Assembly: GCA_001464235.1 (NCBI GenBank)
Contig: LNFH01000323.1
Location: 1 to 39,894, forward strand
DNA: 39,894 nucleotides
Reading direction: 5' to 3'
Origin: Rhizobiales bacterium Ga0077556
GTDB lineage: Bacteria > Pseudomonadota > Alphaproteobacteria > Rhizobiales > Phreatobacteraceae
A model generated the notes under the pieces. The model saw only the letters and a program-made list of their open reading frames with translations, made no database searches and was not told the origin of the DNA. Below, piece after piece: positions 2,296 to 23,520 of this stretch. The number at the start of each line of letters is the position of its first letter. Within the stretch, counting starts at the first letter, position 1. Position numbers and translations under genes: made by a program.

Positions 2296-3549
2296 ATGTC
2301 CGATAGTACGGTGCATCCCGAAGGCGGATCGCAAACGGTGGCCGCGACCGCCCAACTCACCGGGATCCTGCGCCGCGTCGCATCGCTCGGCGATATTCTC
2401 GAACGGTCCGTCGGCGATGCCACCCACCCCCTGAAGATCCAGATCGACCGTTTCGACAGCCCGGTCCGTGCCGTGATCGAGGGCAGGCCCACTACGCTGT
2501 TCGGCACCAACAGCTATCTCGGCCTCAATTTCGACCCGCGCTGCATCGCCGCCGCCGAGACCGCCCTGAGGACCTGGGGCACCGGCTCCACCGCCTCGCG
2601 CGTCGCCAGCGGCAACCAGGCCGGCCACGCCGAGCTCGAGCGCACCATCGCCGCCTATTACGGCCGGCCGGACGCCATCGTCTTCTCGACCGGCTTCATG
2701 GCCAATCTCGGCTCCATCGGCGGCCTCGCCGCCGAGGGCGACCTCATCCTCTACGATGCCTTCTGCCACGCCAGCATCATCGATGCCTGCCGGGCCAGCG
2801 GCGCCACCTTCAAGTCCTTCCGCCACAACGACCCGGCCGATCTCGACCGCATGCTGACGGAAGCCACCGTGCCGCCCTCGCGCACCCTCGTCGTTCTCGA
2901 GGGCCTCTATTCGGTCTGGGGCGACCTCGGCGCGGTCAAGGACCTCGCCACCGTCGCCAAGAAGCACGGCGCGCTGGTGCTGGTGGACGAGGCGCACGGC
3001 CTCGGCCTCTACGGCGCCACCGGCCGCGGCGTCACCGAGGCCCAGGGCGCCGAGCATCTGGTCGATGCCGTCGTCGGCACCTTCTCCAAGTCGGTCGGCG
3101 TCATCGGCGGCTATTGCGTCACCAGCCACCCGGCCCTGAAGGCGCTGCGCTTCCTCGCCCGGTCCTACCTCTACACGGCCTCGCTGCCGCCGGCGGTCGT
3201 CGCCTCGGCCCGCACGGCCATCGGCATCATCGCCGGCGAGCCGGAGCGGCGCGCCGACCTCTGGCGCAAGGCCGAGCGCTTCTGCGCCGGCGTGGAGGCC
3301 CTCGGCTATTCCATGTGCGCGGCCCCCGGTCCCGTCGGCGCCATCAAGATGCGCGGCCTCGTCCAGGGTCTCGGCTTCTGGCGCGAGCTGCTCGAGCGCG
3401 GCATCTACGTCAACATCCTCGTGCCGCCGGCGACCCCGAGCGGCGAGGTTCTGCTGCGCTACTCGGTCTCGGCCGCCCACACCGACGCCGACATCGACCA
3501 GTTCCTCGCCATTCTGGGCGACCTGTCGCAGATGGCGCAGACCGCCTGA
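2296..3549 (+). CDS. spt: Alpha-oxoamine synthase, probable serine palmitoyltransferase
   Basis: Class II PLP aminotransferase fold: 'NSYLGLNFDPRC', 'DEAHGLGLYGATGRG', PLP lysine 'GTFSKSVGVIGGY'; sits beside an ACP and a sphingolipid-type gene set. Confidence 0.85.
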   Translation: MSDSTVHPEGGSQTVAATAQLTGILRRVASLGDILERSVGDATHPLKIQIDRFDSPVRAVIEGRPTTLFGTNSYLGLNFDPRCIAAAETALRTWGTGSTASRVASGNQAGHAELERTIAAYYGRPDAIVFSTGFMANLGSIGGLAAEGDLILYDAFCHASIIDACRASGATFKSFRHNDPADLDRMLTEATVPPSRTLVVLEGLYSVWGDLGAVKDLATVAKKHGALVLVDEAHGLGLYGATGRGVTEAQGAEHLVDAVVGTFSKSVGVIGGYCVTSHPALKALRFLARSYLYTASLPPAVVASARTAIGIIAGEPERRADLWRKAERFCAGVEALGYSMCAAPGPVGAIKMRGLVQGLGFWRELLERGIYVNILVPPATPSGEVLLRYSVSAAHTDADIDQFLAILGDLSQMAQTA

Positions 3550-3556
3550 TCCCGGC

Positions 3557-3970
3557 TCACAGCAGGACGACGGCTTCCGCCAGCGCCGCCGCCTTGCCGT
3601 CGGGACCCTTGATGAAGATGCGCAGGGTCGCGCGGGCGCGCCCCTCCGCATGGTCCGCCCGCACCACCCGCGCCGATACCGTCACCGCCGTGCCCACCGC
3701 CACCGGCATGGCGAAGCGGCTGGAGAGCTTGGCGCAGGTGCCCTGCGGCAGCCATTCGGCGAGCGCCGTGTCCGCCAGCCCCATCAGGAGCATGCCCTGC
3801 ACGATGGCGCCGGGCAGGCCGACCTCCCGGGCCGCCGCCTCGTCCACATGGATCGGATTGTCGTCGCCGGAGGCCGCCGCGTAGCGCCGCACCATGGCCA
3901 TGTCGACGGCCGGAAAGTGCCGGTCGGGCAGCACGGTGCCGAAGGGCAGGGGATGGTCCGCGGCGGTCAC
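3557..3970 (-). CDS. MaoC-like (hotdog) dehydratase domain protein
   Basis: 'YAAASGDDNPIHVDEAAAREVGLPGAIVQGMLLMGL' hydratase-2 type motif (D..P.H). GTG start at 3970 overlaps the preceding stop (GTGA). Confidence 0.8.
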   Translation of the reverse strand: MTAADHPLPFGTVLPDRHFPAVDMAMVRRYAAASGDDNPIHVDEAAAREVGLPGAIVQGMLLMGLADTALAEWLPQGTCAKLSSRFAMPVAVGTAVTVSARVVRADHAEGRARATLRIFIKGPDGKAAALAEAVVLL

Positions 3971-4338
3971 GGCACCAGCCTCAGGACGGCGTGGAGGCGC
4001 GCCACGGGCACGTCCGCATCGCTGACCGTGGCGTCGAGGGAGAGATGGATCTCGTCCGTGCGCCGTACCTCGAACGCCAGCGACAGCGGCCGGTCGAGGG
4101 GAAGGTCGGCCGTCGCCTCCACCGTCTGCAGCTCGTGGACGGGAAGAGAGCCCGGCCGGTCGGCGGCGAGCTCGCGCACGCAATCGACCACCTCGGGCCG
4201 GGTCAGCCAGCGGATCGGATAGGTGGTCGGCGTGCGTCCGCTGGCGGCGAGCCCGAGGCTGTCCGCGAAGGCCGCGACGTCGGCGGCCGTGGCGACCACG
4301 GTGAGGGTGGCCTGGCGGGTCGCGCCGACGAGGCTCAC
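3967..4338 (-). CDS. Small hypothetical protein, possible FAS1-type dehydratase N-terminal hotdog half
   Basis: 123-aa ORF 'VSLVGATRQATLTVV...HAVLRLVP', GTG start overlapping the KAS stop (GTGA) and GTGA overlap with the downstream MaoC gene. Fold assignment is inference. Confidence 0.55.
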   Translation of the reverse strand: MSLVGATRQATLTVVATAADVAAFADSLGLAASGRTPTTYPIRWLTRPEVVDCVRELAADRPGSLPVHELQTVEATADLPLDRPLSLAFEVRRTDEIHLSLDATVSDADVPVARLHAVLRLVP

Positions 4339-5529
4339 GCCGCCCGGCCGATGGCCAGCGAGGCGTTGATGCCGCCGAAGGCGAAGGAATTGGTCAGCGC
4401 CACGTCGAAGGCGTGCTTGCGTCCGACATTGGCGACGCAGTCGATCGGGCAGGCCGGGTCCGCCTCCAGGAAGTTGATGGTGGGGGGCACGAAACCCTCC
4501 TCCAGCGCCCGGATGGTGACCACCGCCTCGATGGCGCCGGCGGCGCCCAGCGTGTGCCCGTGGATCGGCTTGGTGGAGCTGACCGGCAGGGTGCCGAGCC
4601 GCTCGCCGAAGACGCGGCCGAGGGCCTCGCTCTCGGTGGAATCGTTGAGGATCGTCGCCGTGCCGTGGGCATTGACGTAGCCGACCGCCTCCGGCGCGAG
4701 ACCGGCATCGGCCAGCGCCAGCGCCATGGCCTCGGCCGCGCCGCCGACGTCCGGCTTCAGCATGTCCTTGGCGTCGCTGGTGGTGCCGTAGCCGAGGATG
4801 CGGCCGCGGATGCGGGCGCCGCGCGCCGCGGCGACCTCCTCGGCCTCCCTCGCCGAGCAGAAGGCCGTTGCGCCCGCGCGAGAAGGGCCGGCAGAGCTGC
4901 GGCGACAGCACGCGCAGCATCTCCCAGGCCTTCATGCCGCCCGGCGTGATGATGGCCTCGGCGCCGACGACGATGGCCCGGTCCGTCAGGCCCGCGCGGA
5001 CCATGTGGAAGGCGATGCCGAGCGCCTGGGCGGAGGAGGCGCAGGCGCTGGACACCACGAAGGTGGTGCCCGTGCAGCCGTAGACGAGGCCGACATTGGA
5101 GGCAGAGGCGCTGATCATCGCCCGCGGCACGGTCAGCGGGTCGGGCCGCTTCTGCGTCAGCGCCATGTTGCGCGAGGCAGCCTCGATGGTGCCGAGGCTG
5201 GCGATGCCCGTGCCGACGATCACCGAGGTGCGGGGGCCGAGCGGCAGGGCCTCGGCGAGGCCGGCATCCTTCACCGCCTCTTCGGCCGCGATCAGCGCCA
5301 TCAGCGTGACCTGGTCGAAGAACGAGGTCTTCAGATGCGGGAAGAAGCGCTCGAGGTCGAAGTCCTGGACCTGGGCGGCGATGCGCAGGTTGTTGCCGAA
5401 CTCGTAGTCCAGCACTATCTGCTTGACGCCCGACACGCCCGCCGCCGCCGCGCTCCAGAGGGCCTCGACCCCCTGGCCGGCAGTGGTGAGCGCACCGAGA
5501 CCGGTGACGACGACGGAGCGGGACGTCAC
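4335..5529 (-). pseudogene. Beta-ketoacyl-ACP synthase (KAS II/FabF-like), frame-disrupted near 4847
   Basis: N-terminal part (frame of ORF 3967-5529) carries 'VSSACASSAQ' active-site Cys and stops resembling KAS after 'RPFSRGRNGLLLGEG'. C-terminal part (ORF 4335-4763 frame) carries 'NAHGTAT' and 'SSTKPIHGHTLGAAGAIE'. Confidence 0.85.
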
Positions 5530-5531
5530 GA

Positions 5532-5810
5532 TCAGGCCTGCTGCGCTTTCTGGATATGCTCCTTGAGCACGGCGATGAGGCCGCCGACGTCCTTCACCTG
5601 TGCCAGGCTTTCGTCCATCGGCACGTAGACCTGAAACTTCTCCTCGATGGCGGCGAGGATCATCATGTAGTCGACGCTGGCGATGTTCAGCGATTCGAGC
5701 GTCGTGTCCGGCCCAACGCCGTTCAGATCGACCATGCCTTCCTTCGCGATGACCTCGACGAGGTCGCGCGTCAGCTGGTCGTCCCCGAAAGCGGATGCGG
5801 TATCGGTCAT
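5532..5810 (-). CDS. Acyl carrier protein (dedicated, sphingolipid-locus type)
   Basis: 92 aa; helix with 'LNIASVDYMMILAAIEEKF' giving a candidate phosphopantetheinyl Ser; located directly upstream of the KAS gene (2-nt gap). Confidence 0.8.
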   Translation of the reverse strand: MTDTASAFGDDQLTRDLVEVIAKEGMVDLNGVGPDTTLESLNIASVDYMMILAAIEEKFQVYVPMDESLAQVKDVGGLIAVLKEHIQKAQQA

Positions 5811-6033
5811 TCCGTGGCCTTCTTGTTTCTTCTCGACGTCGTCCGGTTCTGACACCGTCACGCTAGGCGCTGCGCGCGCGCAAGCCAAGGGGTGCTCGGC
5901 TCGTGCGCCCGCGTCCCGTGCGACGCTCAGTGCCTTCCTAACCTCTTATTTCCGTCCTATCTAGCACCCAGTTGCACCGGAGGTGGCCCTTGGGCCCCTT
6001 CGGTCGCGAAACAATGCGTTGACGAGGGTTCCC

Positions 6034-6646: not shown

Positions 6647-7414
6647 TCAGCGCCCGCCGGCGCCCCAGCCGAAATCGTGCCAGAGCCCGCGTGGGAACGG
6701 GTTCGGCAGGCGGTTGCGCTCGATCAGGCGGCGCAGGAGGGGCGGGCGCTCCCCCGTCTTCCAGCTGCCGAGGAAATGGTGGCGGCAGAGAATGCGCCGG
6801 CCGAGCAGCGGCAAGTCGGCGTAGAGGTCCGGCGGCACCCAGCCGATCTGGTGCAGCACGTCGACGTCCGCGGGACGGGCGGCGTAGAAGAACCGGGTCA
6901 GCGCCTTCGGTCCGGTCGCATCCTCGATGTCGCGGCGCTCCGTCACCGGCCGTTCCGACAGGCGGCGGACCATCTCCGCGGCGAAGGCGGCGAGGAACGG
7001 ATGGCCGGCCGGCCCCGCGAAGATGCAGTTGGCGATCTGGAACGGCTGGTCGTAGCCGAGCTCGCGCTGGCGGATGCCCGTCACCTGCGCCTCGATGCCG
7101 AAGACCGCCCGGTCCCCCGCCAGCACCGGCCCGAGCGGCGCCATGCACTCCATGTCCATGTCGGCGTAGATGCCGCCCTCGGCGAGCACCACGAGCACGC
7201 GGAACAGGTCGGCCTTCTGCACCGGGAAGCGGATGCCCTCGTAGGTCGCCGCATAGGCCGGGAACCGCTCCGCGACGAAGCGGTCCATGGCCGCGTCGTC
7301 GTAGAAGCGCAGGGTGATCGCCGGATTGTGGCGCACGAAGCTCTGCTGGAAGGCGGCGAGATCGGCGGGCAGCTCGGCCGATTTCCAGGTCTGGTGGAGG
7401 ACGAGGGGGATCAC
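6647..7414 (-). CDS. DXD-motif glycosyltransferase, GT32/OCH1-MIPC-synthase-like (Gly_transf_sug)
   Basis: 'IPLVLHQTWKS', 'FPVQKADLFRVLVVLAEGGIYADMDMECM' (DxD), 'NCIFAGPAGHPFL'. GTG start overlaps the LptG-like stop. Confidence 0.8.
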   Translation of the reverse strand: MIPLVLHQTWKSAELPADLAAFQQSFVRHNPAITLRFYDDAAMDRFVAERFPAYAATYEGIRFPVQKADLFRVLVVLAEGGIYADMDMECMAPLGPVLAGDRAVFGIEAQVTGIRQRELGYDQPFQIANCIFAGPAGHPFLAAFAAEMVRRLSERPVTERRDIEDATGPKALTRFFYAARPADVDVLHQIGWVPPDLYADLPLLGRRILCRHHFLGSWKTGERPPLLRRLIERNRLPNPFPRGLWHDFGWGAGGR

Positions 7415-8610
7415 GAAGGCTCCGGACGCGACAGCACGGTGGGCGAGGGGCCGCCTCGCCCGGCCCGCTCGATGCGCGCCATCAGGCCGAGGCCGGTGGC
7501 GATCATCGCCAGCGGCATGAACCACGCCGCGAACAGGGGAGGCAACTGCCCGTATTCGCCGAGCCAGACGACGACGTTGTTGGTCACGTAGAGGAAATAG
7601 CCGGCGAGCCCGATCAGGATCATCGGCTTGAACAGGGTGCGCTGGGCGAGGAGCGTCATGGCCAGCGCCGAGGCCATCAGCATCATGCCGAGCGGCAGCA
7701 CCGCCTGGGCGATCCTGACGTGCCACCAGGCCCGGTAGGAGGGCTCCTGGACCCCCGGCAGGCTCGCCAGGGCCGCCAGCGTCCCCTGCGGGAGATAGCG
7801 CGCGTCGATGCCGAGATTGGCGAGCCAGAGAGGCTGCAGCGGCAGGGCGATGCGCTCCTCGGCAAAGCGCCGGACCTCGCCGACCCCCGCAGCCTCGCCG
7901 GTCGGCGCGATCCAGCGGCTGCCGTCCCGGAAGACCCAGATCCCCGGCGCATCGCCCGGCGAGGCGCTGGCGGCCGAGACGCGGCCGGTCAGCCGTCCGC
8001 CCTCCGACAGTTCGAACAGCTGCACGTCGACCAGCGTCCGGTTGCGGAAGTCGACCCGCGCCTGGACCATGTGGTTGGCGAGCACGATCCAGCGCCGCTC
8101 GTCCGGCTTCAGCCGCCGGTCGAAGCGCTCGCCGTAGCTGCCGAGGCGGCTCTCGATCTGCACGGCGACGGCGGCCGGGCGCAGAAACGTCAGCGCCGCC
8201 ACCTGCAGCGCCCCGAACGCCGCTCCGAGGAGGAGGAGCGGCATCAGCGCCTGCAATGGCGAACGCCCGCCGTTCCACACGACGATGCGCTCCCGCGACT
8301 GCGTCAGCGTGATCTCCGACCAGAACAGGCCCATGAAACAGGCGAGCGGCAGCAGGTTGCCGATGACGTCGCAGATGCGCAGCAAGAGGTACCAGCCCAT
8401 CAGCAGGGCGACGCTCGCGGCGCCCCCGCCGGCCGCGGCGACGATCCGCTCGGCGCGCGAGGCGAGGTCGAGCGTCAGGGCGACGATCAGGAGGGCGGCC
8501 GCCACCGTCCCGACATGGCTCGCATGGGCGAGCGTCAGCGTGCGGGTGAAGGTGCCGAAGGGCACGAGGCCGAAGCGCCGGCCGGCCGGGGGAGCGGGAG
8601 CGTCTGTCAC
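7411..8610 (-). CDS. LptG-like YjgP/YjgQ family permease
   Basis: About 399 aa; TM segments flanking a periplasmic domain; 'VLANHMVQARVDFRNRTLVDVQLFEL', C-terminal 'LFKPMILIGLAGYFLYVTNNVV'. Coupled (GTGA) to the LptF-like gene. Confidence 0.8.
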   Translation of the reverse strand: MTDAPAPPAGRRFGLVPFGTFTRTLTLAHASHVGTVAAALLIVALTLDLASRAERIVAAAGGGAASVALLMGWYLLLRICDVIGNLLPLACFMGLFWSEITLTQSRERIVVWNGGRSPLQALMPLLLLGAAFGALQVAALTFLRPAAVAVQIESRLGSYGERFDRRLKPDERRWIVLANHMVQARVDFRNRTLVDVQLFELSEGGRLTGRVSAASASPGDAPGIWVFRDGSRWIAPTGEAAGVGEVRRFAEERIALPLQPLWLANLGIDARYLPQGTLAALASLPGVQEPSYRAWWHVRIAQAVLPLGMMLMASALAMTLLAQRTLFKPMILIGLAGYFLYVTNNVVVWLGEYGQLPPLFAAWFMPLAMIATGLGLMARIERAGRGGPSPTVLSRPEPS

Positions 8611-9821
8611 GAGCGGCTGAGCCCCGGTCGCGCAATGGCCGAGGAACGCAGCGCCACGGCGGCGACGAGCCCGACGCCGATGGCGAGGCCGCCGGTGGCG
8701 ACGAGGCCCAGCACGGGCCACAGGCCGGCCGCCAGGATCCCCGTGAGCACGGATGTGCCGGCGATCTCCATCGTCATCAGCCCGGCGCAGGCGAGGGGCA
8801 GCACGAAGGCCTGGTTGGCCCGCGTCGTGAACGACAGCGCCAGCAGGGCGATGAGCGGCGCGATGAGGCAGAGGAGGCTGCGCCCGATGCGCTTGGCGAG
8901 CTCCAGCCTCTCGCCGGTGCGCGCGAAGGCGCCGGTGAAGAGCTCCGGCAGGGTCAGTTCCGCGATGTTCCGCCCCCGCGGATCGAAGGGCACCACGTCG
9001 TTGAAGACGAGGCTCTGCTGGGTGGCCGTGCCGCGCAGCGAGGATGTGGGCGCGACGGGCCGCTGCTGCGCGGTGGTCGCGCCCGCAGCCGGCGCCGGGA
9101 AGTCGTCCACGGCGAAGTCGTAGAGGTGGAGGGCGACGCGCCCGTCGATGTCGGGGCCGATCAGGCGGGTGCCGTTGGCGACCACCACCCGCTCGCCGCC
9201 CGCCTCGGTCGGCTGGCGCACGAAGAGGCGCGGCGTCGGCATCCCGTCCGAGCGCGGCATCACCGCGACCGTGCCGATCCGCGTTTCGAACAGTCGGTTG
9301 GCGGTGACCGTGCCGCCGGTGAGCGCGTGGTACTGCGCCGAGAACATCACCAGCCGGAAGGCATAGCGCGACAGGGGATCGACGAATCCGCCGACGGCGA
9401 GGGCCGCGATCTGCGCCCAGATGCCGATGCGGATGACGAGCCGGATGAGGCCGTGCGGCGGGATGCCGAGGCTCGACAGCATCAGGAACTCGCGGTCCTC
9501 GCGCAGGCCGAGCGCCACGCGGTAGACGGCGATGAGAATGGCGGTGGGCAGGGCGAGTTCGAACACCTGCGGCAGCATGGTCGCCATCATGGCGACCGTC
9601 TTGGAAAGCGGAGCGCGGATCTTCAGCACCTCCTCCAAGAGGCCGGAGATGAGCTGCTCGGCGACGAAGATGCTCTCGATGAGCAGCAGCACGAGGGCCA
9701 CCTGCACCGTGACGTCGCGCATGATGCGGTGGGCCTGCTGGCTGGGGAAGCGCCGCGCCCGTCCGCCGAGATCGAGTTGCGAGACGAGCCGCCTTTTCAG
9801 GGCGAAGAGGCTTCTCACCAC
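8607..9821 (-). CDS. LptF-like YjgP/YjgQ family permease
   Basis: 'LPQVFELALPTAILIAVYRVALGLREDREFLMLSSLGIPP' typical of YjgP/YjgQ; C-terminal TM helices. Confidence 0.85.
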   Translation of the reverse strand: MVRSLFALKRRLVSQLDLGGRARRFPSQQAHRIMRDVTVQVALVLLLIESIFVAEQLISGLLEEVLKIRAPLSKTVAMMATMLPQVFELALPTAILIAVYRVALGLREDREFLMLSSLGIPPHGLIRLVIRIGIWAQIAALAVGGFVDPLSRYAFRLVMFSAQYHALTGGTVTANRLFETRIGTVAVMPRSDGMPTPRLFVRQPTEAGGERVVVANGTRLIGPDIDGRVALHLYDFAVDDFPAPAAGATTAQQRPVAPTSSLRGTATQQSLVFNDVVPFDPRGRNIAELTLPELFTGAFARTGERLELAKRIGRSLLCLIAPLIALLALSFTTRANQAFVLPLACAGLMTMEIAGTSVLTGILAAGLWPVLGLVATGGLAIGVGLVAAVALRSSAIARPGLSRS

Positions 9822-9918: not shown

Positions 9919-11055
9919 TTGCAGATTGCTGAAGCACGGTCACGGCGCGATTTTAGACGCTTCGTCCGCATCCCGCGACAACTCTATTCGGGCATGCCCG
10001 GATTTCAGCCGCCGCTGGATCTGGAACGGACGCTTCTGCTCGACCCGCGCGTCGCCCCCTTCTTCACCCACGGCGAGGCCGCCTTCTTCATCGCCAGCGA
10101 CGACGACGGCCGGCCGCTCGGGCGCATCTCGGCCCAGTTCGACCGGCTGACCCCGGCCGGGCGCACCGCCACAGGTCATTTCGGCTGCCTCGACGCGGTG
10201 GACGATCCCGCCGTGGTCGCCGGCCTCGTCGCGGCCGCCCGCGCCTGGCACGCGGCGCGCGGCCGGCACCGCATCGAGGGGCCCTTCACCTATTCCATCA
10301 ACGAGGAAGTCGGCGTCCAGGTCGAGGGCCAGTACCGGGGCGACATGGTGCTCATGCCCTGGCATCCGCCCTATCTCGGCGCCCATGTGGAGGCGGCGGG
10401 TCTCGTGCCGGTGAAGGACCTCCTCGCCTATTCCGTGCCCATCGAGCAGGGCGCCCGCTGGCGCGGCCGGCGCTTCGCCGAGCTCCCCGAGGGCAGCCGC
10501 ATCACCGTCCGCAAGCTCCGGCTCCGCGACCTCGCCGGCGAAGCCGCCATCATGACCGACCTCTTCAATGCCTCCTGGCGCGACAACTGGGGCTTCATCC
10601 CGCTCGCGGCGGCCGAGCTGACGACGCTGCTCCGGGTGATCCGGCCGATCCTGCGCGCCGACCACGCCGTCTTCCTCGAGCATGAGGGGCGCCCCGCCGC
10701 CTTCGCCTTCATCATGCCCAACGGCTACGAGCTCTTCCGCGGCTTCGGGGGCCGCCTCCTGCCGTTCAACTGGGCGCGGATCGCCTGGCGCATCCTGACC
10801 CATCGCTTCGCCTCCAAGCGCGTCACCCTGCTCGGCGTCCGGACCGACCTGCGCGACACCATTCTCGGCGCACGGCTGCCGATCGTCGCCATCGCGCGCC
10901 TCATCGCCGCCAATCCACAGCCGGCGGAGATCGAGATGAGCTGGATTCTTGACGACAATGTGCGTATGCGCCGTATCATCGAAGGCGCGGGCGGGACGGT
11001 GTCCAAGCGCTATCGGGTCTATGCGGACCCGGTGACGGAAGGTGAGGGGCCATGA
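9919..11055 (+). CDS. GNAT-fold protein, candidate bacterial ceramide synthase (bCerS-like)
   Basis: 'RFVRIPRQLYSGMPGFQPPLDLERTLLLDPRVAPFFTHGEAAFFIA', 'GPFTYSINEEVGVQVEGQ', 'FNASWRDNWGFIPL' match the family used by Caulobacter ceramide synthase. TTG start. Confidence 0.75.
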   Translation: MQIAEARSRRDFRRFVRIPRQLYSGMPGFQPPLDLERTLLLDPRVAPFFTHGEAAFFIASDDDGRPLGRISAQFDRLTPAGRTATGHFGCLDAVDDPAVVAGLVAAARAWHAARGRHRIEGPFTYSINEEVGVQVEGQYRGDMVLMPWHPPYLGAHVEAAGLVPVKDLLAYSVPIEQGARWRGRRFAELPEGSRITVRKLRLRDLAGEAAIMTDLFNASWRDNWGFIPLAAAELTTLLRVIRPILRADHAVFLEHEGRPAAFAFIMPNGYELFRGFGGRLLPFNWARIAWRILTHRFASKRVTLLGVRTDLRDTILGARLPIVAIARLIAANPQPAEIEMSWILDDNVRMRRIIEGAGGTVSKRYRVYADPVTEGEGP

Positions 11056-11561
11056 GCACGGCAGACGGTACGGGCGTCCTCGCCCCGGTGGACGCCGCCT
11101 TCATGGTGAGCCACCCCGCGTCCCTGCTGGCCCTGGTGGGCGGCGCCGGCCTCTTTCCCTACGGCCCCGGCACCCTCGGCGCCCTCGTCGGCATCCCGCT
11201 TGGCCTCGCTCTCCAGGCAGCATCCCCCGCCGTCGCCATCGCCGTCATCGCCGCCGCCTTCGCCATCGGGGTCTGGGCCTGCGGCGTCACCGCCGTCCGG
11301 TCGGGGCTCCACGACCATCCCGCCATCGTCTTCGACGAGACCTGGGCCATGGCCGCCGTCGTGGCCTTCTCGCCGCCGGGCCTGCGGGCGGTGATCGTCG
11401 GCTTCGTCGCGTTCCGCCTGTTCGACATCCTCAAGCCCTGGCCCATCGGCCATATCGACGAGAACGTCGCCGAGGGCTTCGGCATCATGCTGGACGACGC
11501 GGTGGCGGGCGTCTTCGCCCTGGCTCTCGTGTTCGGCCTGTCGCGGCTCGGCTGGCTCTAG
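11052..11561 (+). CDS. PgpA-family phosphatase (phosphatidylglycerophosphatase A-like; candidate phosphatidylinositol-phosphate phosphatase)
   Basis: 'GAGLFPYGPGTLGAL', 'IVFDETWAM', 'FRLFDILKPWPI', 'GIMLDD'. ATGA overlap with the upstream GNAT gene. Confidence 0.85.
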   Translation: MSTADGTGVLAPVDAAFMVSHPASLLALVGGAGLFPYGPGTLGALVGIPLGLALQAASPAVAIAVIAAAFAIGVWACGVTAVRSGLHDHPAIVFDETWAMAAVVAFSPPGLRAVIVGFVAFRLFDILKPWPIGHIDENVAEGFGIMLDDAVAGVFALALVFGLSRLGWL

Positions 11562-11791: not shown

Positions 11792-12508
<717 letters not shown>

Positions 12509-12560: not shown

Positions 12561-13640
12561 TCAGCGCTCGCCCTCGATGAAGGCGATGGTGAGGTCGCGC
12601 GCCTCCGGGTCGGTGTACTGCTTGGGCGGCGACTTCATGAAGTAGCTCGACGGCCCGCCGATCGGTCCGCCCTGTTTGCGGTCGAGGGCGATGCGGCAGC
12701 AGCGCACGGCGTCGATGACCACGCCCGCGGAATTGGGCGAGTCCCAGACCTCGAGCTTCAGCTCCATGTTCAGCGGCACGCCGCCGAAACCGGTCCCCTC
12801 GATGCGGATATAGGCCATCTTCCGGTCGTCGAGGAAGGGCACGAAGTCGCTCGGGCCGATATGGATGTTGTCGGCGTCGATCGGCACGTCGATCTGGCTG
12901 GAGACGGCCTGGGTCTTCGACTTCTTCTTCGACGACAGGCGCTCGCGCTCCAGCATGTTGAGGAAGTCGGTGTTGCCGCCGAAATTGAGCTGGTAGGTCC
13001 GCTCGATCTTGACGCCGCGGTCCTCGTAGAGGCGGGCGAGCACGCGGTGGACGATGGTGGCGCCGACCTGGCTCTTGATGTCGTCGCCGACGATCGGCAG
13101 GCCCTTGTCGGCGAAGCGCTTCGCCCACTCGGGATTGGAGGCGATGAACACCGGCACGCAGTTGATGAAGCCGCAGCCGGCCTCCAGCGCGCGCTCGGCA
13201 TAGAACTCGCAGGCCTTCTGCGACCCGACCGGCAGGTAGCAGATGATGACCTCGGCGCGGGCCGCCTTCAGCACCGCCGTCACGTCGGCCGGTGCCTCCT
13301 TCGATTCGGTCACCACGCCGACCAGGTGCTTGCCGACGCCGTCGAGGGTCGGGCCGCGCTGCACCGTCACGCCGGTGGGCGGCACCTTGGCGAACTGGAT
13401 GGTGTTGTTTGGCTTGGCGAGGATGGCGTCGGCCACGTCCTGGCCGACCTTGCGGCTGTCGATGTCGAAGGCCGCCACGATCTCCACGTCGCGGATATGG
13501 TAGGGGCCGACCTCGACGTTCATCAGGCCCGGGATCGACTCACCGGGCTTGGCGTCCTTGTAGTAGTGCAGACCCTGAACGAACGAGGCGGCGCAATTGC
13601 CCACGCCGACGATGGCAACACGAATGGCAGACCGTGACAC
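12561..13640 (-). CDS. ino1: Inositol-3-phosphate (myo-inositol-1-phosphate) synthase, actinobacterial-type
   Basis: '[22 protein letters not shown]', '[14 protein letters not shown]', '[20 protein letters not shown]', '[12 protein letters not shown]'; GTG start at 13640. Confidence 0.92.
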
Positions 13641-13728: not shown

Positions 13729-14694
13729 ATGATCGTGACAGGCGCCGCCGGCCTTCTCGGTAACACCGTGTTGCGGGCCGCCGCGGCGCGGGGTCTGGAG
13801 CCCACCGCCTGGCTGCGCGGCAGGGCGGGCGAGAGGACGCTCGCCGGGCTCGACCTCCCGGTCGTCTTCGCCGATCTCGCCGTCGATCCCCTGGAGAAGC
13901 ATCTCGAAAACGCGGGAATCGTCGTGCATTGCGCCGCCAGGGTGGAGATCGGCAGCACCGGGGCCGAGGCCTCCCGCCGCGACAACGTGCTGGCGACGGC
14001 GCGGCTCGCGAGCGCCTGCCGTGCAGTCGGCGCACTTCTGATCCACATCTCGACCGTCGACACGCTGGCCTGGGGAACACGGGAGGCGCCGGGCGACGAG
14101 ACGCCCGCCGCACCCCATCCACGTGATACCACTTACGCCGCCACCAAGCGGCTCGCCGAGGCGGCGGTGCTCGCCGAGATGGAGCGGGGACTCGCCGCGA
14201 CCATCGTCCACCCCGGCTTCCTCCTCGGCCCCTGGGACTGGAAACCCTCCTCCGGGCGCATGCTGCTCGCCGCCGTGCGCGGGCCCGTCGGCATCGCCCC
14301 GCCGGGGGGCAACGATTTCTGCCACGCCGGCGCCGTCGCCGAGGCCATCCTGACGCTCGCCGACCGGCCGCCGCCCTCTCGGCGCTACGTCCTGTCGGGC
14401 GAGGCGCTGACCTATGCCGAGGCCTTCCGTCAGATGCGGCGGGCGGCGGGACGCCCGCCTCGCGTCGTCGAGGCGCCGGAGGCGCTGGTACGCGCCGCCG
14501 GGTGGGCCGGCGATCTCTGGGGACGGATCAGCGGCCGCGAGCCGGCCCTCAACGGCGCCGCGGCGGAGGTTGCCTGCGCGCCGCACCACTTTTCCTCCGC
14601 CCGGGCCATCGCGGAGATCGGCTACCGGCCCCGCCCCGCCATCGAGGCCATGCGCGAGGCGTGGACATGGTTCGTCCAACGCGGCTATGCGTGA
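13729..14694 (+). CDS. NAD-dependent epimerase/dehydratase family (extended SDR), candidate CerR-like ceramide-pathway reductase
   Basis: '[16 protein letters not shown]', '[10 protein letters not shown]', '[13 protein letters not shown]'. Function inferred from locus context. Confidence 0.75.
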
Positions 14695-14730: not shown

Positions 14731-15821
14731 GTGAAGATCGCACTCGTCAGCGACTGGTTCGTGCCGCGCCTCGGCGGCATCGAGCTGCAGATGCGCGATC
14801 TCGCCCTGGCGCTGCGCGAGCGCGGCCACGAGGTCCGCGTCATCTGCGGTGTCCCAGGCGAGGCGCAGGTCGACGGCATCCCGGTCGAGCGCCTGCCCGG
14901 CCCGCGGCTGCCCGGTTTCGGCATCGCCTTCACGCCGGCGGTCTTTGCGGCGCTCAGGGCCGCCATCGACGCTGGGGGGGACGAGGTCGTCCACGTCCAT
15001 TGCGGCAACGTCGCGCCCATCGCCCACCACGCCGTGCAGCACTGCATCCACCGCGGCATTCCGGCCGTCGCCACCTTCCACTCGGTGCTGAAATATTACG
15101 ACCTGCCGCTGATGGCGCTGAACGCGCTGCATGGCTATGCCCGCTCCGCGGTCCGCTTCTCCGCGGTCTCGACGGTGGCCGGCGCGGCCTTGCGCCCGCT
15201 TCTGGGCGACCGGGCGGTCACCGCCATTCCCAACGGCATCGACCTCGCCTGGTGGCGCCGGCCGGGCGACTTCGCTTCGAGTTCGTCTCGGTGACGCGGC
15301 TGCAGAAGCGCAAGCGGGCGCGCTGGCTGGTCAAGGCCTTCGCCGCGGCGGTGGCGCACCTGCCCCCCGACGCGGCGCGGCTGACGGTGGTCGGAGACGG
15401 CGACGAGATGGCCGCCATCGCCGCCATCATCCGCCGGGCCGGCATGGAGGACCGGACCGTCCTCGCCGGCCGCGAGACGCGCGAGGCGATCCGCGACCGT
15501 CTCCATCGCGCCGACGTCTTCCTGCTGGCGTCCCGGCTGGAGGCCTTCGGCATCGCCGCCCTCGAGGCGCGCGCCGCCGGCCTGCCGGTCGTCACCATGG
15601 CGCAGTCGGGGGCCCGCGACTTCCTCCGGGACGGCGAGGACGCCATCCTCGCGGCGGACGATCGCGAACTGACGGACGCCATCCGCCGGCTGGTCGAGGA
15701 TCCCTCGCTCCGCGGGCGGCTCGTCGCGGCGGCCGCCCTGCCGCCGGCCGGCGTCGACTGGCGCGACGTCGCCCCGCTCTACGAGGCGGAATATCAGGCG
15801 GCGCGGGCCGCGGTCGCCTAG
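14731..15821 (+). pseudogene. GT4-family glycosyltransferase, frame-disrupted at a CTTCG duplication (15270-15279)
   Basis: N-terminal 'MKIALVSDWFVPRLGGIELQMRDLALALRERGHEV...IPNGIDLAWW' in one frame; C-terminal 'FEFVSVTRLQKRKRARWLVKAF...LASRLEAFGIAALEARAAGLPVV' in another. Confidence 0.88.
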
Positions 15822-16816
15822 GGCTGGTCGAGCCGGCGCTGGCCCTTGTCGTCCTGGGGCAACGCCCAGCCGAGATAGGCGAGGCTCACCAGCGAGGCGA
15901 CGAAGAGCACGCCGTGGTGGATCAGCGCCGCTGCGGTCGCCAGCGGCAGCGGCACGCCGAGATACTGGTAGCAGAGGATGACGGTCGCCTCGAACACGCC
16001 GAGATGGCCGGGCGAGACCGGCGCCATGGTGGCGAGGTCGAGGGCCGCCACCACCAGCACCGCCGCGGCGACCGAGGGCTCGATGCCCACCGCCACCTGC
16101 ACGGTCATCACCATCAGCACCTCCGCCGCGGTCTTGGCGAAGGTCAGCAGCACCACGGCTGTGCCCAGCACCGGCTTGCGCAGCGGCTCGAGATTGTCGA
16201 CGAAATCGGCGACGTGGCCGACCAGCCGGGCCGGGCGTGCCGAAAGGCCGATGCCGAGGCGGCGCAGCCGGTTGCCGCCATGGGCGGCGACGAGCAGGGC
16301 AAGCGTGAACACCGCCATGATGCCCGACAGGGCGAGGAGGCCGGAGCGCAGCCAGTCCGGCACCGGCACCAGCAGCGCGGCGAGGGCCAGCGTCGCCACC
16401 TTGCCGATGCCGGTGACGAGCTGGTCGACCGTGTAGAGCGAGGCGGCGGCGGAGGCCGGCAGGCGCCCGCGCACGATCAGAAAGCCGACGGAGGCGACGA
16501 CGCCCGTCATCGGCAGCGAGGTGTTGGCGGCCCCGCTCAGCGCCGTCACCTGCGCCATGCGGGCGAAGCTCGGCCGGTGCGCCTTCGGCGCCAGCAGCTG
16601 CCACTGCAGGATCCAGAACGGCCAGCCCGCCAGCGAGACGAAGACCGCGAGGAGCGCCCAGTGCCATTTCGCGCCGGCGAGGGCGGCGATGACGTCGGCC
16701 CAGGGCAGGGCATAGGCGGCGATGCCGGTGAAGAGGGCCAGCACGCACCAGCCGAGGATCCACCACAGGCGGCGCGAGGGCGGCGCGGCGGCGTCCGTGG
16801 CGGCGGGCACGCTCAT
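15818..16816 (-). CDS. Lysylphosphatidylglycerol synthase TM-region / UPF0104-like flippase domain protein
   Basis: Polytopic; 'LSGAANTSLPMTGVVASVGFLIVRG', 'APVSPGHLGVFEATVILCYQYLGV' typical of the family. Confidence 0.75.
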   Translation of the reverse strand: MSVPAATDAAAPPSRRLWWILGWCVLALFTGIAAYALPWADVIAALAGAKWHWALLAVFVSLAGWPFWILQWQLLAPKAHRPSFARMAQVTALSGAANTSLPMTGVVASVGFLIVRGRLPASAAASLYTVDQLVTGIGKVATLALAALLVPVPDWLRSGLLALSGIMAVFTLALLVAAHGGNRLRRLGIGLSARPARLVGHVADFVDNLEPLRKPVLGTAVVLLTFAKTAAEVLMVMTVQVAVGIEPSVAAAVLVVAALDLATMAPVSPGHLGVFEATVILCYQYLGVPLPLATAAALIHHGVLFVASLVSLAYLGWALPQDDKGQRRLDQP

Positions 16817-17553
16817 GCCGCTATCCCCTTCGCCTGCGCGCCCATGTCCCGCATGGTCATGAAGGTGGCGCCGCGGCCCTTGAAATAGCCGATCACCGAG
16901 GCGAGTGCGTCGAGCGCCGGCTGGCCCGTGCGGAAGCGGCAGTCGTAGCGCAGGTTCGAGGAGCGGAAGTCGACGAACTCCCAGGGGTGGACGAAGAGCA
17001 CGACGGGATCGGGCAGCCGGCCGAGGAAATATTCGCGCAGAAGCTTGGGGATGCGCAGCGCGCTCGATGTGATGGAGGCGGGAATGCGCACGAGCCCCGG
17101 CGCGTTCTCCTCGCCGGGAACGTCCTTCTTGTAGCGCGCCTGCGAGGAATCGAGGGCGAAACCCTCGTCCTGGAGCAGGTCGAGATAATGGCCGGGAAAA
17201 CGCAGATAGGGGGCGCGGAACGAGGTGATCTCGCCGAACTCGCGCAGCCGCCGTGTCGAGTCCTGGATTTCCCAGCGGGCGCTGTCCTTCGACATCCAGT
17301 CGAAGCGCTGGTGGGTGACGCCGTGGCAGGCGAGTTCGTGGCCACCGTCGACCACGGCCCGGACGGCGGCGGGGTGGAGCCTGGCCGTCTCGCCGGTGGT
17401 GAACCAGGTGACCGGCACGGCCTCGCGGGCGAAGAGGTCCAGGAGGCGCGGCGCGCCCTCCGTCACTCCCCGCCACGTCCACAGGAACGGCGGGCAGTCC
17501 GGTTCCATGTCGACGGTGAGCGCGACGCGCAGCGGCGGGACGAGAGCGGCCAT
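16813..17553 (-). CDS. Polysaccharide deacetylase (NodB homology)
   Basis: 'ALTVDMEPD', 'GHELACHGVTHQRFDWM', 'SFRAPYLRFPGHYLDLLQDEGFALDSS'. ATGA overlap with the flippase-like gene. Confidence 0.88.
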   Translation of the reverse strand: MAALVPPLRVALTVDMEPDCPPFLWTWRGVTEGAPRLLDLFAREAVPVTWFTTGETARLHPAAVRAVVDGGHELACHGVTHQRFDWMSKDSARWEIQDSTRRLREFGEITSFRAPYLRFPGHYLDLLQDEGFALDSSQARYKKDVPGEENAPGLVRIPASITSSALRIPKLLREYFLGRLPDPVVLFVHPWEFVDFRSSNLRYDCRFRTGQPALDALASVIGYFKGRGATFMTMRDMGAQAKGIAA

Positions 17554-18666: not shown

Positions 18667-19539
18667 CTACCACCAGTCCCGGAAGGCGGCGATGGCATCG
18701 AGGTCGTTGGTGCCGGAGCTGTTCGGCCCGAAGGTGAGGGCGGCGAGGTTCGACGCTTCCGTCTCGATCGGCAGGCCGCGGCCGGGAATGACGAGGCGCG
18801 GCACGCCGCGTTTCGCCAGGTGGCCGGCGAACCACACGTCGTCGACGAAGCGGATGCCGGGCGCATGGTCCGAGAAGTCGTGGACGGCCGCGTCGAAGGC
18901 GCCGGGCGGCACGAGATAGCCCCAGGTGCCGAGCAGGATGTCCACCGGTTCCGGTTCGGCGAGGGCGGTGGCGAAGATGTGCGGGAAGCGCTTGGGATGG
19001 GCGCCCTGCACGATGCGCCAGCCGCGCCAGCCGATGGCGGCGCCCGGCAGGCGGCGGTGCCAGGCGAGCATCTGCTCGAGGAAATCGGCGGGATAGATGA
19101 CGTCGTCGTCGACGACGATGATCGCCGCATCGGGTTCGGTGAGCAGCGCCGGCAGCAGCTTGGTGGCCGGTCCCTCGTCGGTGGTGTCGAGCACGTCGAC
19201 CCCTGGAAAGGGCGGGTCGAGCCGCGGATAGGGCTTGCCGGAGCGCCGCGACACCTCGGGGCGGGCGAGAATGATGCGGTCCGCCGCCACCGTCTGGTCG
19301 AGGAGGCTGCGGAACACCGGGGTGAGCCTGTCCATGCGCTCCGGTACGGTCGTCAGCGTCACGACGAGCCGCTCCGGCCGTGGCGGGGAGGGGGGGCGCG
19401 CGGGGGGAGAGCCCTGCATCAATTTGCGTGCCCGGGCATGATCCTGATAGAGCCTAGCCGGCGTCATGCGCCGGAAGCGCATCAGCGCGTTGCGGATCAT
19501 CATGGCCGGAAGGCCGGGGCGGTCCGGAAAGTGGGGCAC
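18667..19539 (-). CDS. Glycosyltransferase (GT-A-like)
   Basis: 'LVVTLTTVPERMDRLTPVFRSLLDQTVAADRIIL', 'AIIVVDDDVIYPADFLEQML' (DDD metal motif), 'FVDDVWFAGHLAKRGVPRL'. Confidence 0.7.
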   Translation of the reverse strand: MPHFPDRPGLPAMMIRNALMRFRRMTPARLYQDHARARKLMQGSPPARPPSPPRPERLVVTLTTVPERMDRLTPVFRSLLDQTVAADRIILARPEVSRRSGKPYPRLDPPFPGVDVLDTTDEGPATKLLPALLTEPDAAIIVVDDDVIYPADFLEQMLAWHRRLPGAAIGWRGWRIVQGAHPKRFPHIFATALAEPEPVDILLGTWGYLVPPGAFDAAVHDFSDHAPGIRFVDDVWFAGHLAKRGVPRLVIPGRGLPIETEASNLAALTFGPNSSGTNDLDAIAAFRDWW

Positions 19540-19612
19540 ATCTCGGCCTCGGCTCCTTTCGGGGTGAGGACGGGCTCATAGCACCGCACGCGGCAAACGG
19601 GGAGCCGGGTTG

Positions 19613-20311
19613 ATGTCGGAAAGCTGGGTCTCGCGGCTTCTCGCGAGCCTTGAACGGGGCGCCTCCCTGCAGGACGTCGCCCGCAGTGCGTCCTTCGCCG
19701 GAACGCTGGCGAAGGTGGCCTCCGTGCTGGCGCGCACCGGCGTCACGCCCAACACGCTGACGCTGCTGTCGCTGTTGCCGGCGCTGGTCTCCGGCGTGCT
19801 CGCCGCTTACGGCGCCTTCGGCTGGGCGACGCTCCTGCTTCTGCTCTCCGGCGTCTTCGACATGCTGGACGGGCCGCTCGCCCGTTCCACAGGCACGGTG
19901 AGCCGCTATGGCGCGCTGCTCGATTCCACCGTTGACCGCCTCACCGACGCCGCCCCGCTGCTCGGTCTCACCGTCTTCTACACCACGTCCGGTTGGATGG
20001 CGGTGGTCCCCGCCTTCACCCTGCTCGCCGCCTACACCGTCTCCTACGTGCGGGCGCGCTGCGAGGGCCTCAAGGTGCAGCTGCCGCCGCTGTGGATGCG
20101 CCGCGGCGACCGCATGGTGCTGATCGCGGTCGCCCTGCTCCTCGGCGTCGTCTCGCCGGCCATCACGCTCGGCGGCATCGGCCTCGTCGGCGTCCTCAGC
20201 CTCCTCGCCGCCGCCGACGCTCTGCGCGTCGCGCGCAACGTCATCGACGCCCGGGTGCCGGAGGTGCGCGCCGTGGCGGATGCACCGGCCGGCCGCGACA
20301 ACGCCGCCTGA
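19613..20311 (+). CDS. CDP-alcohol phosphatidyltransferase, candidate phosphatidylinositol(-phosphate) synthase
   Basis: Intact CAP motif DG-PL-AR-STGTVSRY-G-ALL-D-STV-D; followed by 'YVRARCEGLKVQLPPLWMRRGDRMVL'. Confidence 0.85.
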   Translation: MSESWVSRLLASLERGASLQDVARSASFAGTLAKVASVLARTGVTPNTLTLLSLLPALVSGVLAAYGAFGWATLLLLLSGVFDMLDGPLARSTGTVSRYGALLDSTVDRLTDAAPLLGLTVFYTTSGWMAVVPAFTLLAAYTVSYVRARCEGLKVQLPPLWMRRGDRMVLIAVALLLGVVSPAITLGGIGLVGVLSLLAAADALRVARNVIDARVPEVRAVADAPAGRDNAA

Positions 20312-20319
20312 GACCTCCC

Positions 20320-21246
20320 ATGATCGACACCGCCCGGACGCGCCTGACGGACCTGTGGGGCCGCTGGTGGCTGGCGCCGCTGGCGCCGACCCTCTACGCC
20401 CTCGCCATGATCCCCGCCGGGCAGTTGCGGCCCGAGCACATCCTCATCGCCGGCCTCGTCCTCGGCCTCGGCCTCTTCAACCGCACGACCCAGCGCATCA
20501 CCGCCGCGCTCTATCCCGGCGTCCTCGTCGCCATCGCCTCGGATGCCATGCGCTTCGTCGTGCCGATCTTCGTCACCCCGGAGCGCGTCCATGCCTGCGA
20601 CCTCCGCGCCCTCGAGCTGAAGCTCTTCGCGGTGGCGCCGGACGTGACGCCCGGCGACTGGCTGCAGCAGCACACCGCGCCCTTCTGGGACGTCTTCTTC
20701 GCCGTCCCCTACGCCGCCTTCCTCTATGTCGTGCCGGTCTATGCGCTCTACCTCTTCGTCCGCGACCGGGAGCGCATGGCGCTCTATCTCTGGGCCTTCG
20801 CCATCGCCCACGCCATCGGCTTCGCCATGTGGCTGATCGTGCCGGCGGCGCCGCCCTGGTACGTGCGGATGAACGGCTGTCTCGTCGACGTGAAGGCCGC
20901 CGCCAACGCCGCCGGCCTCCTGCGTGTCGACGACCTCTTCGGCATGACCTATTTCCGGCAGTTCTACGCCCGCGCCGCCAATGCCTTCGGCGCCATGCCC
21001 TCCATGCACGTCGCCTTCCCGCTGATCGGCCTCTTCGCCGCCATCGGCCGCGCCACCTGGCGCACCTGGCCGCTGCACCTCTTCTACGCGACGGCCATGT
21101 TCATCGGCAGCGTCTATCTCGACCACCACTGGATCCTCGACGGGATCGCCGGCGCCTTCGTGGCCCTGGCCGCCGTCTGGATCGCCGCGCGTCTCCTCGG
21201 CCTGCCCTGGCCCTGGCCGCCGCGGGCGGACAAGGCGGCCCCCTGA
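20320..21246 (+). CDS. PAP2-family membrane protein, Aur1-like candidate inositol phosphorylceramide synthase
   Basis: Polytopic; 'FGAMPSMHVAFPLIGL' and 'YLDHHWILDGIAGAFV' match the PSxH and HHxxxD motifs of PAP2/Aur1 proteins; 8 nt after the CDP-alcohol transferase stop. Confidence 0.75.
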   Translation: MIDTARTRLTDLWGRWWLAPLAPTLYALAMIPAGQLRPEHILIAGLVLGLGLFNRTTQRITAALYPGVLVAIASDAMRFVVPIFVTPERVHACDLRALELKLFAVAPDVTPGDWLQQHTAPFWDVFFAVPYAAFLYVVPVYALYLFVRDRERMALYLWAFAIAHAIGFAMWLIVPAAPPWYVRMNGCLVDVKAAANAAGLLRVDDLFGMTYFRQFYARAANAFGAMPSMHVAFPLIGLFAAIGRATWRTWPLHLFYATAMFIGSVYLDHHWILDGIAGAFVALAAVWIAARLLGLPWPWPPRADKAAP

Positions 21247-21300: not shown

Positions 21301-23520
21301 TTACTCGAGGCAGTCCAGCGGCACCACCGACTGGTCCGAGTTCTGCAGGATGTCGCTGGTGGGCAGCGTGGCGCTCGATTCGCCCTCGGCCGGCGTCACG
21401 TTGTTGGCGGCGAGGAAGGTGCGCACGAGATCGAGCTTGATGCCGAAGTTGATGTTCTGCGCGGTGCGCTCGCCGGAGATCTTGTCGATCTGCGAGACCA
21501 CCACGCCGACCACCAGGCCCGCGGCGTCGAGCACCGGCCCGCCGGAATTGCCGGGCTGGGTCGGCGCCGTGTACTGGAACCGGCTCTGGTCGCCGAGCGC
21601 TCCGCGCAGGCCCGAGACGATGCCCTCGGTGACGTTGACGCCGCCGAGCTGCGAGCGGGCGGGATAGCCCACCAGCACGACCTTCTCGCCGCCCCGGACG
21701 TTGACGCCGCCGCCGTTGCGCAGCCGCAGCGGGGCCGAGGTGGCATTCTCCTGCACCAGCACGGCGAGGTCGGCGCCCTCGTCGGCGCCGATCAGGCGCA
21801 GCGGCACGCGCTGGCCGCCCGGCCGGGCGATGGCCACCGTGGCGCAGCCGTCGATGACGTGGTGGTTGGTCAGGATGTGGCCGGTCTCGTTGATGTAGAA
21901 GCCGGTGCCGGTGGAAGCGACCTGGCCGGGACGGCCGGCGCGGCCGATCGCCATCTCGGGCGTCGCGCAGAGGTCCTGGTCCCGCTTCTCCATGGACTGG
22001 CCGCCCTCGTAGACCACCTTCAGGTCCCAGCGGCAGCCGCCCTCGGTCGGCAGGCGGAGCTCGAGGCGGAAGCGGCGCGGCATCAGTTCCGAGCCGAGAC
22101 GGTCGTCGCCCCAGTGGGTGTCGGTCACCGGCGTCAGGTAGACCTCGCGCACGTCGCCGCGGCCGTTGTTGGTGAAGACGACGCGCCGGCCGTTCTCCGG
22201 CCCGCCGCCGTCGACGCGGAAGGCGTTGGCGCCGCCGAAGGCGATCTCCTGGCGCTGGCAGAGGTTCTGCCGCATGCGCCGCTCCTCGCGTCCGCCCTGG
22301 TAGACGATGCGCAGGTCGTAGTTGCACTGGTCGTCACGCTCGACGCGGGCGGTGAAACGGGCGCCCGGCGGAATGCGGACCTCCGGGTTCAGCATGTCGT
22401 CGCCCCAGGACGAGACCTTGGACGAGGAGATGAACAGCGATTCGATCGGCCGGTCGCCCTCGTTGATGACGACGATCTGCGAGATGGAGGGCTGGGCGGC
22501 GCGGGTCGTCGGCCGCTGCTTGCGGTCGCCGCGGCCGGTGGCCAGGGCGGGACCGGAGACGACGAATTCGGATGATTCGCACAGGTTGACCGCGTTGCGG
22601 ACCTCCTCGCGGTCGTTGTCGAACCGCACCTTCACGTCGTACTCGCAGCCGCGCCGCGGCATGGTGACCTGGAAGGTGCCGCGCGCGGCGATGGTCTCGC
22701 TGCCGAGGCGGTCCTCGCCCCAGGCGCTGGTGCCGCGCGGGCGCACGTAGAGATACTGGATCGGGATCGCGCCGCGGTTCTGCACCACGAAGGCCAGCGG
22801 CTCGCCGGCCGGCTGTTCCGGCCGCTCCTGGCCGCCCTCGCGGCGGGCCTGCGGCTGGCCCTCCGCCTCCGTCCCGAAGACCACCTCGCGGCTGGTGCAG
22901 AGGTTGCGGCCCGACAGGGTGCGGTCGCCCGCGCCGTCGAAGGTCGCCACCACGTCATAGGTGCAGCCGGCGCCGCGCCGGAAGCGGCCGGTGAAGCTCT
23001 GGCCGTTCTCGAGCACCGTCGCGCCGAGCACGTCCTCGCTCTCGTTGCCGCCGGGCGCCACCAGCTTGAGCACCTGCAGGGTCGATCCCGAGCGGTTGCG
23101 CACGACATAGAGCGCCACCGGGCCCTGGCGCTGCAGGTCGGTGTTGGACGTCTGGGTGCGGCCGTTCAGCGCCACCTCGGGGCGGGCGCACAGGTCGAGG
23201 CCGAACCGCGTCTCCTCGCGGCCGTTCTCGTAGATCGCCCTGAGGTCGTGGCGGCACTGGTCGCCCTCGATGGTGAAGGTGTGGGAGCGGTTGCGCGCCA
23301 CCGTGTCGTTGCCGAGCCGGTCCTCGCCCCAGGACGTTTCGCCCACCGGCGTCACGAACAGATACTGGAGGGTGGCGCTGGCGCGGTTCTGGATCGTCAC
23401 CTCCGTCGAGGCCGGGGCCTGCTGGCGCCGACGCTGGGCCTCGGCATCGGGAGCCTGCAGCAGCATCAGGCAGGCGGCGGCGAGCGCGAGCGGCGCTGGG
23501 TGGCGGGTGAGCAGCGACAT
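21301..23520 (-). CDS. Trypsin-like (S1/HtrA-type) serine protease with five N-terminal ~80-100-aa repeats, secreted
   Basis: 'GHILTNHHVIDGC', 'GADLAVLV', 'PTQPGNSGGPVLDAAG' triad motifs; five repeats with SWGeDrLg...C.yDl...LC pattern; N-terminal signal peptide. Confidence 0.88.
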   Translation of the reverse strand: MSLLTRHPAPLALAAACLMLLQAPDAEAQRRRQQAPASTEVTIQNRASATLQYLFVTPVGETSWGEDRLGNDTVARNRSHTFTIEGDQCRHDLRAIYENGREETRFGLDLCARPEVALNGRTQTSNTDLQRQGPVALYVVRNRSGSTLQVLKLVAPGGNESEDVLGATVLENGQSFTGRFRRGAGCTYDVVATFDGAGDRTLSGRNLCTSREVVFGTEAEGQPQARREGGQERPEQPAGEPLAFVVQNRGAIPIQYLYVRPRGTSAWGEDRLGSETIAARGTFQVTMPRRGCEYDVKVRFDNDREEVRNAVNLCESSEFVVSGPALATGRGDRKQRPTTRAAQPSISQIVVINEGDRPIESLFISSSKVSSWGDDMLNPEVRIPPGARFTARVERDDQCNYDLRIVYQGGREERRMRQNLCQRQEIAFGGANAFRVDGGGPENGRRVVFTNNGRGDVREVYLTPVTDTHWGDDRLGSELMPRRFRLELRLPTEGGCRWDLKVVYEGGQSMEKRDQDLCATPEMAIGRAGRPGQVASTGTGFYINETGHILTNHHVIDGCATVAIARPGGQRVPLRLIGADEGADLAVLVQENATSAPLRLRNGGGVNVRGGEKVVLVGYPARSQLGGVNVTEGIVSGLRGALGDQSRFQYTAPTQPGNSGGPVLDAAGLVVGVVVSQIDKISGERTAQNINFGIKLDLVRTFLAANNVTPAEGESSATLPTSDILQNSDQSVVPLDCLE

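Follow-up and report, generated by a model that had tools for sequence, protein, structure and literature searches.

The window, by which we mean the whole 39,894-nucleotide stretch analysed here (contig LNFH01000323.1 of Rhizobiales bacterium Ga0077556, Phreatobacteraceae), carries on its plus strand a gene for a CDP-alcohol phosphotransferase (CAP; 19613..20311), followed by a gene for an Aur1-type PAP2 protein (20320..21246). The CAP gene starts with an ATG at 19613, one codon after an in-frame TTG at 19610, has its stop at 20311 and encodes 232 amino acids; the PAP2 gene runs from an ATG at 20320 to a stop at 21246 and encodes 308. The two are 8 nt apart, as the first-pass annotation of this DNA had stated. 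Both are real coding genes under purifying selection, with dN/dS against the nearest Phreatobacter genome (G002) of ~0.10 for CAP and ~0.13 for PAP2, and GC3 of 0.92 and 0.96, respectively.

CAP belongs to Pfam family PF01066, and its signature, which the first-pass annotation had described as intact, is indeed unbroken (D83-x2-D86-G87-x2-A90-R91-x8-G100-x3-D104-x3-D108) and invariant in 56 aligned sequences, satisfying the class I CDP-AP pattern D1xxD2GxxAR...GxxxD3xxxD4. The closest NCBIfam models were those for archaetidylinositol-phosphate synthase (NF040950, 124 bits), PI-phosphate (PIP) synthase (NF045883, 98.9 bits) and BT_1523 (NF052561, 91.3 bits); all scores were below cut-off, which for the PIPSynth equivalog is 170 bits. 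The PDB sequence matches were the mycobacterial and Renibacterium PIP synthases (6h5a and 5d92), which have in common with CAP the signature, an RxxR motif, and the serine and basic residues of the inositol-phosphate pocket. In the Renibacterium enzyme, R153 and R191 hold the phosphate of inositol-phosphate (Clarke et al., PMC4634129). The RxxR of CAP (R164/R167), corresponding to the Rs R153 motif, was invariant in the 56 sequences. At the Rs R191/Mt R195 position, however, CAP has A203, with R205 two residues on, in a last helix whose alignment is uncertain; two alphaproteobacterial relatives (L037 and L038) have no arginine there. By sequence, CAP thus resembles PIP synthases, but differs from the mycobacterial and Renibacterium enzymes in that the second of the two phosphate-binding arginines is not cleanly conserved. 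In a class-wide search 361 of 385 genomes gave a CDP-AP match of some kind; the search is informative only for the best match outside the genus, which was 35% identical (E 1e-22).

The PAP2 protein carries the motifs FGAMPSMH (with H230) and YLDHHWILDG (with H270 and D274) in the Aur1-type arrangement that the first-pass annotation had recognized, and also PAAPPWY, which it had overlooked. H230, H270 and D274 align to H255, H294 and D298 of Aur1 (numbered by chain position in the PDB sequence alignment), the catalytic triad of that enzyme, and are invariant in 39 sequences; in the same set PAAPPWY is mostly invariant, and the key motif residues are invariant or nearly so. The sole NCBIfam match of PAP2 was phosphoinositol dihydroceramide synthase (NF052609), at 136 bits against an equivalog cut-off of 480, a shortfall that bars the equivalog label but not that of a relative. 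Its only significant PDB sequence matches were fungal Aur1 (9ivc, E 2.6e-13; 9vj3, E 4.2e-13). The first-pass annotation had proposed comparing a structure prediction with Aur1. An AlphaFold model built from the 39 sequences (pLDDT 93) had Aur1 as its top Foldseek match (9vj4, E 1.8e-9, TM 0.66/0.72), followed by a second Aur1 (6.8e-9). PAP2 and the fungal Aur1 structures (9ivc, 9vj3, 9vj4) share the fold, as predicted for PAP2, the PAAPPWY motif and the His-His-Asp triad, at ~24% identity over the aligned fold.

PgpB and LpxE belong to the same superfamily, and LpxE was the third fold match of PAP2, the best after Aur1. PAP2 might then be a lipid phosphatase acting on undecaprenyl-PP, PA or PIP, in which case CAP and PAP2 would make PI only. 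The E-values of LpxE (2.9e-3) and PgpB, however, are some six or more orders of magnitude weaker than that of Aur1 (PgpB, LPP1 and SMSr all scored below LpxE), and the predicted fold is much closer to Aur1 than to any PAP2 phosphatase. Given also the Aur1-like context of the triad, and the presence of a separate PgpA phosphatase and of serine palmitoyltransferase (SPT) and ceramide genes in the same cluster, we regard a phosphatase role as very improbable.

PAP2 was found in all 12 Phreatobacter genomes. Elsewhere it is rare. A sample of 298 genomes from the order gave, outside the genus, weak partial matches only (E 5e-8 or poorer), and an NF052609 profile search of 385 genomes of the class returned, beyond the window, nothing better than weak matches, with E-values of 1e-6 or poorer. 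In a quick unrooted tree, which says nothing firm on the direction of transfer, the alphaproteobacterial sequences grouped (SH-aLRT 95) beside those of Myxococcota. In the Myxococcota relatives (L029-L034) CAP lies near PAP2, with PgpA nearby too in two of them (L029 and L031), and SPT and myo-inositol-phosphate synthase (MIPS) are absent from the stretch examined. Next to PAP2 in the window, 21301-23520 (minus strand) encodes a trypsin-like protease whose N-terminal part has several repeat-like units; it lies near PAP2 across the Phreatobacter genomes compared and is probably unrelated.

Within 18 kb upstream of the pair lie genes predicted to cover every step from serine and glucose-6-phosphate to inositol phosphorylceramide (IPC). 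For inositol there is a MIPS of the mycothiol_INO1 type (12561..13637, minus strand; TIGR03450, 546 bits; PF01658) and a PgpA-type phosphatase, predicted to act on PIP (11052..11561, plus strand; PF04608). The latter overlaps by 4 nt the gene for a ceramide synthase (bCerS/CerS)-like acyltransferase (9919..11055, plus strand), which had no match in a Pfam search and whose tblastn matches, distant homologues, are the genes immediately 3' of SPT in Bacteroidota loci. SPT itself is encoded at 2296..3549 (plus strand; NF047599, 471 bits), and a NAD-dependent epimerase/reductase at 13729..14694 (plus strand; PF01370) is a candidate ceramide reductase (CerR-like); the ceramide-synthase and CerR assignments are candidate ones, resting mainly on position. 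On the minus strand follow a MaoC-like dehydratase domain protein (3557..4183; PF01575), a beta-ketoacyl synthase (4335..5529; PF00109, PF02801) and, adjoining it, a 92-amino-acid acyl carrier protein (5532..5810), picked by eye from the six-frame translation by analogy with acpR (PMC11324152). The ketosynthase frame is broken in the assembly at 4763-5000; relatives read in one frame, with the spacing intact in L106. A carbonic anhydrase gene is also present among the upstream genes. A DUF4833 (PF16117) protein, encoded at 5983-6642 (plus strand) of the window, recurs in each of the three other sphingolipid or MIPS clusters that were tested (L039 3338-3928, L186 12033-12677 and L187 11438-12073) and is a candidate conserved accessory.

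Genes of MIPS, PIP-synthase, PgpA-phosphatase and Aur1-synthase type, as assigned from their sequences, thus occur together, as in the Bacteroides-type IPC gene set. Alongside the family matches, catalytic residues and predicted fold, this content, the strongest evidence of all, makes it likely that the CAP/PAP2 pair forms the lipid end of a pathway for inositol sphingolipids that is encoded in one cluster and yields IPC in Phreatobacter. We infer the substrates and the order of steps as follows. MIPS would convert glucose-6-phosphate to inositol-phosphate, which CAP would join with CDP-diacylglycerol to form PIP; the PgpA-type enzyme would remove a phosphate to give PI; and PAP2, with H230, H270 and D274 as its expected triad, would transfer phosphoinositol from PI onto (dihydro)ceramide, releasing DAG. 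The ceramide would be supplied by the adjoining SPT, acyl carrier protein, ketosynthase, ceramide-synthase-like and reductase-like genes. The pairing of a PIP synthase with an IPC synthase, proposed in the first-pass annotation, is largely supported by the NCBIfam and PDB matches, the predicted fold and the adjoining supply genes, and is limited by the missed equivalog cut-offs and by A203 at the R191 position.

The PgpA gene bears on a different reading of the neighbourhood, in which CAP would be a PGP synthase, PgpA its PGP phosphatase and the whole a housekeeping set for PG synthesis. The PgpA annotation would agree with this, and because no PgpA besides the cluster copy was found in the six genomes tested, that copy could have a part in PG synthesis as well. 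However, a genome-wide search found PgsA, scoring above its NCBIfam cut-off, and PssA, both encoded away from the cluster; given this PgsA, we rejected CAP as PgsA, and use of glycerol-3-P by CAP is unlikely. Furthermore, of 61 genomes surveyed from the order, 56 gave no PgpA. Two of the five carriers are Phreatobacter, and in each of the three outside the genus (G046, G047 and G051) MIPS lies within ~3 kb of PgpA. With the family rare and MIPS-linked, we rejected a housekeeping PG phosphatase as the main reading of PgpA, and dedication of the neighbourhood to PG synthesis appears extremely improbable. Rarity and MIPS linkage fit a role as PIP phosphatase, as the BT_1525 knockout indicates for Bacteroides.

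Gene order was identical in ten other Phreatobacter genomes, within the reach of 20-kb stretches; in G011 a distance of ~30 kb separates the SPT-PgpA part from the MIPS-PAP2 part. In three Hyphomicrobiales MAGs (L035, L037 and L038), whose PAP2 is 43-49% identical to the window copy, the genes for SPT, ketosynthase, ceramide-synthase-like protein, MIPS, CAP and PAP2 lie within 20 kb in varying order, and the same 20 kb hold the GT4, flippase-like, deacetylase and GT-A genes described below. PgpA is present in two of the three, and no CerR-like or Lpt genes were found in these 20-kb stretches. L039, a MAG from Rhodobacteraceae, carries some of the cluster genes. Constant content despite shuffled order is good evidence of a shared function. 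Such conservation also helps to judge whether PAP2 might be a sphingolipid head-group transferase with another donor (PG, PE or PIP directly), its product then not being plain IPC. An Aur1-type fold alone leaves the head group unfixed, and the PAP2 superfamily includes sphingomyelin-synthase-type enzymes, to which the weak SMSr match belongs. Yet MIPS and the PIP-synthase-type CAP are adjacent and co-conserved, the Aur1-specific PAAPPWY is kept, and every significant PDB match of PAP2 is an IPC synthase, which makes another donor unlikely.

Besides the genes predicted to make IPC, our preferred product, the cluster contains genes that probably serve its export and decoration. LptG- and LptF-like permease genes (7411..9821, minus strand; PF03739) are candidates for sphingolipid export to the outer membrane by analogy with Caulobacter LptF2/G2, and an LptB-type ATPase is encoded at 11792..12508 (minus strand; TIGR04406, 326 bits, above cut-off). 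A GT4 glycosyltransferase (14731..15821, plus strand) is BshA/PimA/MshA-like: a PDB sequence search with the intact G002 copy as query (5d00, 4n9w) gave BshA and PimA as the nearest matches and MshA as a weaker one. BshA, PimA and MshA act on malate, PI and inositol-phosphate, respectively. The window copy has a frameshift near 15280 in the assembly, and relatives have one frame (L106 14126-15232); this break and that of the ketosynthase may each be an assembly error or a recent mutation. Next come an LPG_synthase_TM/flippase-like membrane protein (15818..16858, minus strand; PF03706) and a polysaccharide deacetylase of the NodB/CE4 type (16813..17553, minus strand; PF01522, with CE4 matches in PDB), a candidate GlcNAc deacetylase. 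Finally, 18667..19539 (minus strand) encodes a GT-A glycosyltransferase with a GlcNAc-transferase-like predicted fold. Its model (A2 alignment, pLDDT 77) was closest to KfiA (Foldseek E 3.2e-10) and heparosan synthase, then to EXT1/2 and EXTL2; the fold likeness to EXTL2 being weaker than that to KfiA, we rejected a GT64 assignment like that of plant GINT1. The closest homologue outside the genus among the 385 class genomes is 43% identical and lies in G436 with MIPS and SPT beside it. Another genome (G319, L201) has two GT homologues and no cluster.

The GT4, GlcNAc-transferase-like, deacetylase and flippase-like genes are co-conserved with the inositol-sphingolipid genes. Taken together, the GT4, the KfiA-like enzyme and the deacetylase suggest, from their families and predicted folds, GlcN on the inositol. 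A tentative possibility, which we hold well short of the IPC assignment itself, is that the cluster product is a glycosylated, probably glucosamine-bearing IPC, which in bacteria would parallel the GIPC of plants and fungi as well as the first GPI steps. Here the GT4 and/or the KfiA-like transferase would add GlcNAc to inositol, the deacetylase would expose the amine, and the Lpt-like proteins would deliver the product to the outer membrane; set against plant and fungal GIPC synthesis, a GlcNAc-transferase-like enzyme and a deacetylase next to an IPC synthase could give GlcN-inositol-phosphoceramide.

The core chemistry is already known from Bacteroides and fungi. In Bacteroides thetaiotaomicron, BT_1522-1526 is a known inositol-lipid cluster, and deletion of each of BT_1522, BT_1523, BT_1525 and BT_1526 gave an effect matching its pathway step (PMC9246714, PMC8791184). 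It has in common with the window MIPS, PIP synthase, a PgpA-type PIP phosphatase and an Aur1-type PI-DHC synthase. An LPG-synthase-type gene is also nearby in both (BT_1521 and the PF03706 gene), and a gene annotated as LPG synthase, homologous to BT_1521, adjoins both Bacteroidetes inositol-lipid clusters. The systems differ in that the Bacteroides SPT (BT0870) is located elsewhere and a GT4/deacetylase/KfiA-like set is not described there, whereas the window has ceramide and Lpt genes in the cluster; moreover, the MIPS of the window is of the mycothiol type, unlike that of the Bacteroides cluster, and its PAP2 shares only ~32% identity with that of Bacteroides in L091. Because the first-pass annotation had missed both the pathway encoded around the pair and its precedent in Bacteroides, the novelty of the gene pair is lower than it implied. 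Caulobacter crescentus, also an alphaproteobacterium, has spt, acpR, cerR, cerS and a second LptF/LptG, proposed as sphingolipid exporters, in one region (CC_1152-1168), but its head group is phosphoglycerate, added via ceramide kinase (PMC11324152), in place of which the window has the predicted inositol route. Another alphaproteobacterium, Novosphingobium acidiphilum, has a PI-DHC-like lipid without homologues of either Bacteroidetes cluster (Heaver et al.).

An incomplete literature search found no Phreatobacter lipid data, and no report of inositol lipids in that genus or of bacterial GIPC. Relative to the literature surveyed, what is new is the arrangement in a single supercluster, its occurrence in Alphaproteobacteria and the presence of glycosylation genes. 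The cluster offers, in a further alphaproteobacterial genus, one complete and testable predicted gene set for IPC, a sphingolipid characteristic of fungi and plants. Should the glycosyltransferases and the deacetylase indeed modify the inositol head group, GIPC-like lipids, which have been best known from plants and fungi so far, would also be bacterial products; this would bear on how such lipids originated and on outer-membrane sphingolipids.

Two further alphaproteobacterial loci carry part of this gene content. A 20-kb cluster (L200, G436:C1:1-20000) has SPT, MIPS (61%), GT-A and GT4 homologues, two CDP-AP genes and, by eye, a CdsA-like gene; no Aur1-type PAP2 was found in it, and an Aur1-free route to inositol sphingolipids is possible there. 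In the other (L187, G051:C12:11000-30999), SPT, MIPS and PgpA have genes for a PhnW-like aminotransferase and a nucleotidyltransferase-like protein next to them (by eye), and this is possibly a phosphonosphingolipid cluster.
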